Assembly (NCBI GenBank): GCA_905181595.1
Contig: CAJIYI010000002.1
Location: 62,001 to 126,000, forward strand
DNA length: 64,000 nucleotides
Direction: 5' to 3'
DNA from: an uncultured SAR86 cluster bacterium
Lineage (GTDB): Bacteria > Pseudomonadota > Gammaproteobacteria > Magnimaribacterales > D2472
Each line of letters opens with the position of its first letter. Position 1 is the stretch's first letter. Position numbers and translations under genes: made by a program. This document shows, in pieces, positions 16,195 to 17,862 of the stretch. The notes under the pieces were generated by a model. The model was not told where the DNA came from, searched no databases, and saw nothing but the letters and a program-made list of their open reading frames with translations.

Positions 16195-17862
16195 GTGAAC
16201 TCTAAAAATAAACAATACAAAATTGAAAAGGGCTTATTGCTTTTTACCCAGCCTCGCTCGCCCTATTTCTATGGAAAGATAAGGTTAAACAGAAAATATG
16301 TTACGAAATCTTTTGCACCTATTACAGATTTAGAATCAGCAAAAGTGATGCTTTATTCTTGGCAACGTGAGCTTTTAGCCAAAGATTTAGCGCCGACAAA
16401 AGTAATTACACCTAAGGAAAACTTTAAATCGAGATCGGAGTATGTTGAACACGTAGCCATAAAAAATGATTTCCAATTTCTAGATGTGGGTCGCTTTGAT
16501 CCCAGTAAAAAGAATATTGAGGAGCGCAAAATTAATTTTGTTGAGATTTACGGTGACTACAACCAACCTGAGGCTTCCAATCAATCTCATCGCTGTCTAG
16601 ATTGTGGAAACCCATATTGTGAATGGAAGTGTCCAGTTCATAACTACATTCCTGACTGGCTAAAGTTAGTGAATGAGGGGAATATCCTGGAAGCAGCTGA
16701 TCTATGCCATCAAACTAATTCACTCCCAGAAATGTGTGGCAGAGTTTGCCCACAAGATCGTCTATGCGAAGGAGCTTGCACGCTAAACGATGGCTTTGGA
16801 GCTGTCAGCATTGGTAATATTGAAAAATATATTACTGATAAGGCATTGGAAATGGGTTGGAAACCAGACCTAAGCAATCGGAAATGGACTAAGAAGAAAG
16901 TTGCAATTGTTGGTGCTGGGCCAGCAGGCATTGGGTGTGCTGATATTTTAATTAGAGCTGGTATCAAATGTGATGTTTACGATAAGCAATCTGAAATTGG
17001 AGGATTGTTAACCTTTGGAATCCCTGAATTTAAGCTCGAAAAAAGTGTGGTGCGTCGCAGAAGAAAAATTCTCGAAGAAATGGGAATTAAGTTTCACTTA
17101 AATAAGGAGGTTGGCAAAGACATTAGTTTTAAAAAGCTTCATGAAGGTTACGATGCTGTATTTTTAGGAATGGGTACATACACTTCATTGGAAGGAGGCT
17201 TCCGAGGAGAGGATCTGCCTCAAGTTCATAAAGCGATAGACTATCTCATTGGCAATACCAATCATCTGCTCAAGGTAAAACAGGAACCGGTAGATTACAT
17301 TAATCTGAAAGGAAAAAATGTTGTTGTATTAGGCGGTGGTGACACAGCAATGGATTGCAATAGAACTGCAATTAGACAGGGAGCGAATTCAGTTTCATGT
17401 TTATACAGAAGAGATGAAAAAAATATGCCAGGCTCAAGAAGAGAGGTTGTTAATGCCCAGGAAGAAGGTGTGAAATTTGAATTTAATACTCAACCGATTG
17501 CGATTATTGGAAATGATAAAGTGGAAGGCGTAAAAACCATACAAACAAAATTAGGGGCACCAGATCAAAACGGACGGCGAGTTCCGGTTCCAGTTCCGGG
17601 TAGCGAAAAAATCTATCCTGCAGATGAGGTTGTGATTGCATTTGGCTTTCGTGCAAGCCCGGCAGATTGGTTTAAAGATTTCAATATTAAAATTAATAAT
17701 GCAGGTCTGGTCGAAGCACCAGAAAAACAAGAATTAAAATTTCAAACATCAAATCCAAAAATATTTTCTGGTGGGGATATGGTGAGGGGCTCGGACTTAG
17801 TGGTAACCGCTATCTGGGAAGGGCGAGAAGCAGCCAAAAGTATCATACAATTCACCTCATAA
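16195..17862 (+). CDS. gltD: glutamate synthase small chain with ~85 aa N-terminal extension resembling an integrase arm-type DNA-binding domain
   Basis: GltD proper begins about [59 protein letters not shown]; upstream in-frame [52 protein letters not shown]. Confidence 0.93.

Follow-up and report, generated by a model that had tools for sequence, protein, structure and literature searches.

What is a gltD gene of the SAR86 cluster doing with some 90 residues in front of the enzyme that it encodes? The window, the whole 64,000-nucleotide stretch analysed from an uncultured SAR86 cluster bacterium, contains this gene in the following parts.

16195-17862, + strand: extended gltD ORF, GTG start, 555 aa
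16195..16383, + strand: arm-type (integrase arm-binding-like) domain, residues 1-63 of extended GltD
16384..16464, + strand: variable linker, residues 64-90, mean identity 0.29, dN/dS 0.69
16465..17862, + strand: GltD core (Fer4_20 and FAD/NAD(P) domains), gamma-type glutamate synthase small subunit

The core starts near residue 91 (NDFQFLD), and the NCBIfam gltD_gamma_fam model spans only residues 93-553, in agreement with the N-terminal extension reported in the initial annotation. GltD was found in 95 of the 107 genomes of family f1, and the extension in all 94 that retain a GltD N-terminus; the GltD of G066 is cut. The presence of the extension in related genomes, which had been proposed as a check, is thereby established. 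Judged by matching contig titles, the relatives carrying it are SAR86 cluster bacteria, and the majority of the compared genomes are metagenome-assembled or single-cell assemblies. The position of the start codon is conserved in relatives, as ATG in most and as GTG in the window, G056 and G057. Within extended GltD, dN/dS is 0.12 in the domain, 0.69 in the linker and 0.07 in the core, with mean identities of 0.73, 0.29 and 0.81, respectively. Because of the conserved start, the family-wide presence and the purifying selection indicated by a dN/dS of 0.12, residues ~1-63 are a translated and selected domain; the initial annotation had expected at least partial translation. Its statement that no in-frame ATG separates the extension from the core holds between domain and core. 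An in-frame ATG does lie inside the domain (codon 52, KVM) and is not conserved in relatives. Family f4 has unextended GltD, and in both loci read there gltD comes immediately after gltB. G097 encodes a second GltD-like paralogue (G097:C11:1781-3163), which is unextended and 39% identical to the query.

A plain Pfam search with the extension found nothing, and a PDB-sequence search was empty or not significant. Outside the fusions, a profile of the domain (A1) matches almost only the N-termini of tyrosine recombinases. The best integrase match is the SAR86 protein L156 (E 8.6e-12), classed as an integrase from SAM-like domain matches and a catalytic-region motif read from its sequence. The N-termini of gammaproteobacterial tyrosine recombinases were matched with E-values of 1.2e-6 to 0.009, and all integrase matches other than L156 fall between 1e-6 and 1e-2. 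Four new matches were obtained in a phylum sample, of which L196 and L197 are integrases by Pfam and L199 by sequence. The fourth, L198, is a weakly scoring IS21-type transposase and was set aside as the single exception. CTP-synthase-like ORFs also gave weak matches to the extension, which were disregarded. When GltD-only and integrase-only domains were compared by hhalign, Rieske and oxidoreductase members being left out, the score was 95.7% (E 1e-8); the 20 column-shuffled controls reached 0.5% at most. A GltD-only HMM gave E 0.16 on L156, below significance. The SAR86 domain differs from Pfam DUF6538 and Arm-DNA-bind_3 in being only weakly matched in Pfam, with best E-values of 0.0038 and 0.035 among the 19 members and none for the window's domain.

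The AlphaFold model of the GltD domain (pLDDT 92.4) has strands E6-10, E13-18, E21-30 and E33-38 and helix H45-63, and the model of the L156 domain has the same order of four strands and a helix. Foldseek returned no match at E <= 0.001 for the GltD domain. This negative is uninformative because the domain of a true integrase, L156, was likewise without a significant match. The structural comparison suggested in the initial annotation thus agreed in the order of elements and gave no significant Foldseek match. Apicomplexan AP2 domains (PDB 6sy0) were the top match of the L156 domain, with the AP2 regulator SIP2 at E 0.05 (not significant), and ranked tenth for the GltD domain. AP2 proteins differ from the present case as eukaryotic regulators unfused to enzymes, besides the matches not being significant.

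As Pfam was empty and Foldseek not significant, the link to arm domains is drawn from profiles rather than from structure searches. On this basis, homology of the extension to integrase arm-binding domains is well supported, and the resemblance first noticed in the window is upheld by the matches to integrase N-termini and by hhalign. The likeness to the arm-binding domain of tyrosine recombinases (PMC8138268) includes profile homology and strand/helix order. The core-binding and catalytic recombinase domains are absent, the arm-type domain being followed only by the GltD core. An LYR-like Fe-S-chaperone motif (LYTR/LFTQ) was weighed and discarded, as the same residues occur in integrase arm domains. 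A scan of viral contigs for the extension found no relative, and a scan of genome contigs with one strict peptide pattern found only close, SAR86-like loci. Occurrence outside SAR86 was judged from genome samples; those of 369 and 398 genomes contained no further enzyme fusion with an arm domain.

L156 (G014, ~1421-2800) adjoins a tRNA-Phe gene, read from sequence, in a SAR86 genome. The 125 bp between tRNA-Phe and int hold five copies of TAACACA/TGTGTTA, a number reached in 2 of 2,000 shuffles. A general repeat search of this locus was dominated by chance pairs and was not used. The integrase gene is followed by a DNA-methyltransferase-like ORF, identified from sequence only. In the domain tree, L156 groups with the fusion domains in a single clade (96/85), subject to long-branch warnings. 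Negative autoregulation is described for tRNA-associated integrases in which the attL arm sites and the int promoter overlap (Panis et al., PMC2951348). IntS of prophage KplE1 has an N-terminal arm-binding domain, arm-type sites overlapping its own promoter region and self-control (PMC2951348), features that the proposed SAR86 arrangement resembles; unlike IntS, the SAR86 domain is followed by a metabolic enzyme, without a core-binding or catalytic recombinase domain.

The region upstream of gltD is arranged as follows.

11681..14350, - strand: gltB C-terminal part, in another frame here; relatives have it in frame with the N-terminal part
14325..16151, - strand: gltB N-terminal part, divergent partner gene, start codon probably ATG at 16130
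16131..16194, no strand: divergent gltB-gltD intergenic region, holding the candidate operator
16156..16174, + strand: candidate operator, tandem direct repeat ATGTCATAC-T-ATGTCATAC with a 10-bp period, the only match in the window

The two frames of gltB overlap at 14325-14350, and both parts are in one frame in six relatives; the split is either an assembly indel or a real frameshift. An aroB-like frame at 10605-11676 is also interrupted, near 10870-10880, giving pieces of 91 and 268 aa. Together the two splits suggest indel errors in this assembly.

The tandem GTCATAC repeat in the spacer of divergent gltB and gltD is new here. The pattern TGTCATACNNNGTCATAC was found in 92 of the 203 genomes of the order, all in family f1, exactly once per genome and always within ~40 bp upstream of extended gltD. 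It is absent from the order's other genomes, and the reversed-pattern control gave no match in the 203. In the two remaining extended genomes, G145 and G146, the sequence is TGACATACTATGTCATAC, which differs by one base. The 18-bp site is invariant and its flanks are much more variable; the alignment was selected by pattern, so only the contrast with the flanks is informative. Taken as a single sequence (G000), the repeat is not beyond chance, and it is conservation that carries the argument. No consensus promoter was seen in this region of the window, and a promoter scan and a -10 offset test placed neither the gltB nor the gltD promoter. On the tree, the association of site and extension appears as a single event, family f1 versus the rest.

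The same domain was found on two other enzymes. In family f4, the Rieske protein PetA of 14 genomes carries it N-terminally, before the RR-containing signal. At these extended loci, ~150-190 bp separate rpsI from petA and contain two TTGAACAC..TGTTCAA inverted repeats flanking a TATAAT-like sequence; one site abuts the start codon, and the second comes immediately behind rpsI, upstream of this TATAAT-like stretch. In the six unextended f4 genomes, petA lies within ~20 bp of rpsI and there are no sites. Among the 21 f4 genomes, TTGAACAC-N-TGTTCAA occurs in 14, exactly the extended ones, and all listed copies lie at petA; a single match, in G189, came from the reversed control. On a tree of 18 f4 loci, the petA extension takes one or two changes. 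At L184 (G194), a break in the linker leaves extended petA as two frames, one of 112 aa with the domain and another with the Rieske part.

In two f1 genomes, G076 and G077, the domain sits on a 1,250-residue indolepyruvate ferredoxin oxidoreductase. Both genes are preceded by a ~110 bp insert with repeated TATACACA-like motifs: three TATACACA copies and one inverted CTGTGTAT in G076, and TATACACA, TATACACA and TATGCACAG with CTGTGCAT in G077. The last pair in G077 has therefore changed together. As a single sequence, the G077 repeats are not beyond chance. In G072 the unextended orthologue and its upstream gene overlap, and the G074 orthologue is cut, which leaves for comparison two extended genes and a single informative unextended one. 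From these comparisons, the domain was gained separately by GltD, PetA and the oxidoreductase, with site and domain acquired jointly at each gene. The strength of the site-domain argument lies in three separate genes behaving alike.

The GltD extension is probably an integrase arm-binding domain, acquired with a captured integrase module and domesticated, by which GltD would bind DNA and act as an autoregulator. The domain is predicted to bind the tandem repeat, and bound GltD would most likely repress one or both genes, that is gltD and perhaps gltB, in the manner of PutA at putA and putP. The module would comprise arm-type sites, a promoter and the N-terminal domain, and equivalent modules would have been captured separately before petA and the oxidoreductase in other SAR86 lineages. 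Capture of the start of such an integrase gene would supply promoter, sites and binding domain at once, and the petA and oxidoreductase comparisons have this appearance. The signal could be free or unassembled subunit, GltD being titrated by GltB. Fe-S status or cluster loading is also possible, because GltD, Rieske PetA and the oxidoreductase are all Fe-S proteins; this common nature was noticed afterwards and, with three cases, is suggestive. More tentatively, and with the balance somewhat against so broad a statement, SAR86 may have taken up integrase autoregulation cassettes (arm sites, promoter and arm domain) at least three times, each before an Fe-S redox enzyme, the enzymes sensing their own apo or unassembled state and repressing their own genes.

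Autoregulation is not the only way to account for the repeats. They might be operators of an unrelated transcription factor, with the domain serving subunit interaction, stability or Fe-S delivery. The binding of Fe-S clusters by all three hosts would suit such a role, half-site sequences differ among the gltD, petA and oxidoreductase systems, and DNA binding by GltD is a prediction. Nevertheless, three separate genes each acquired site and domain jointly, a gltD site present once per genome would require a regulator dedicated to that spacer, and the profile relatives of the domain are integrase arm domains; we regard this explanation as unlikely. Still less probable is translational control, with the domain bound to the 5' end of the mRNA that encodes it. 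The gltD repeats just upstream of the start codon and the petA site that abuts one could be RNA sites, and dsRNA-binding folds are among the weak Foldseek matches of the L156 domain. Against this, the second petA site precedes the TATAAT-like sequence, the oxidoreductase copies reach ~100 bp upstream with one inverted, and integrase arm domains bind DNA. A non-functional recombinase remnant of an inserted, decayed element would explain the joint origin of domain, promoter and repeats and is the least credible reading, given a dN/dS of 0.12 across the whole family and an invariant 18-bp site with diverged flanks. Of the two alternatives offered in the initial annotation, the autoregulator is thus favoured, with putative binding, by this selection, the invariant tandem repeat and the two parallel cases, and the inert remnant is not.

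The proposed autoregulation by GltD has a counterpart in PutA, whose DNA-binding domain is a ribbon-helix-helix. In E. coli, PutA binding is confined to the divergent putA/putP spacer (PMC8249747). As in PutA and other trigger enzymes, a DNA-binding-type domain is fused to a metabolic enzyme, and conserved candidate sites lie in the divergent spacer beside its own gene. In contrast to PutA, the SAR86 domain is of the integrase arm type, the hosts are GltD, Rieske PetA and indolepyruvate oxidoreductase, and binding is predicted.

A literature search of incomplete coverage found no description of the fusion or its sites. The autoregulator reading predicts specific protein-site pairs. If it is true, bacteria would offer a case in which an integrase DNA-binding domain has been domesticated to control metabolism, and core nitrogen and energy enzymes of a streamlined ocean bacterium would be regulated without a separate regulator.
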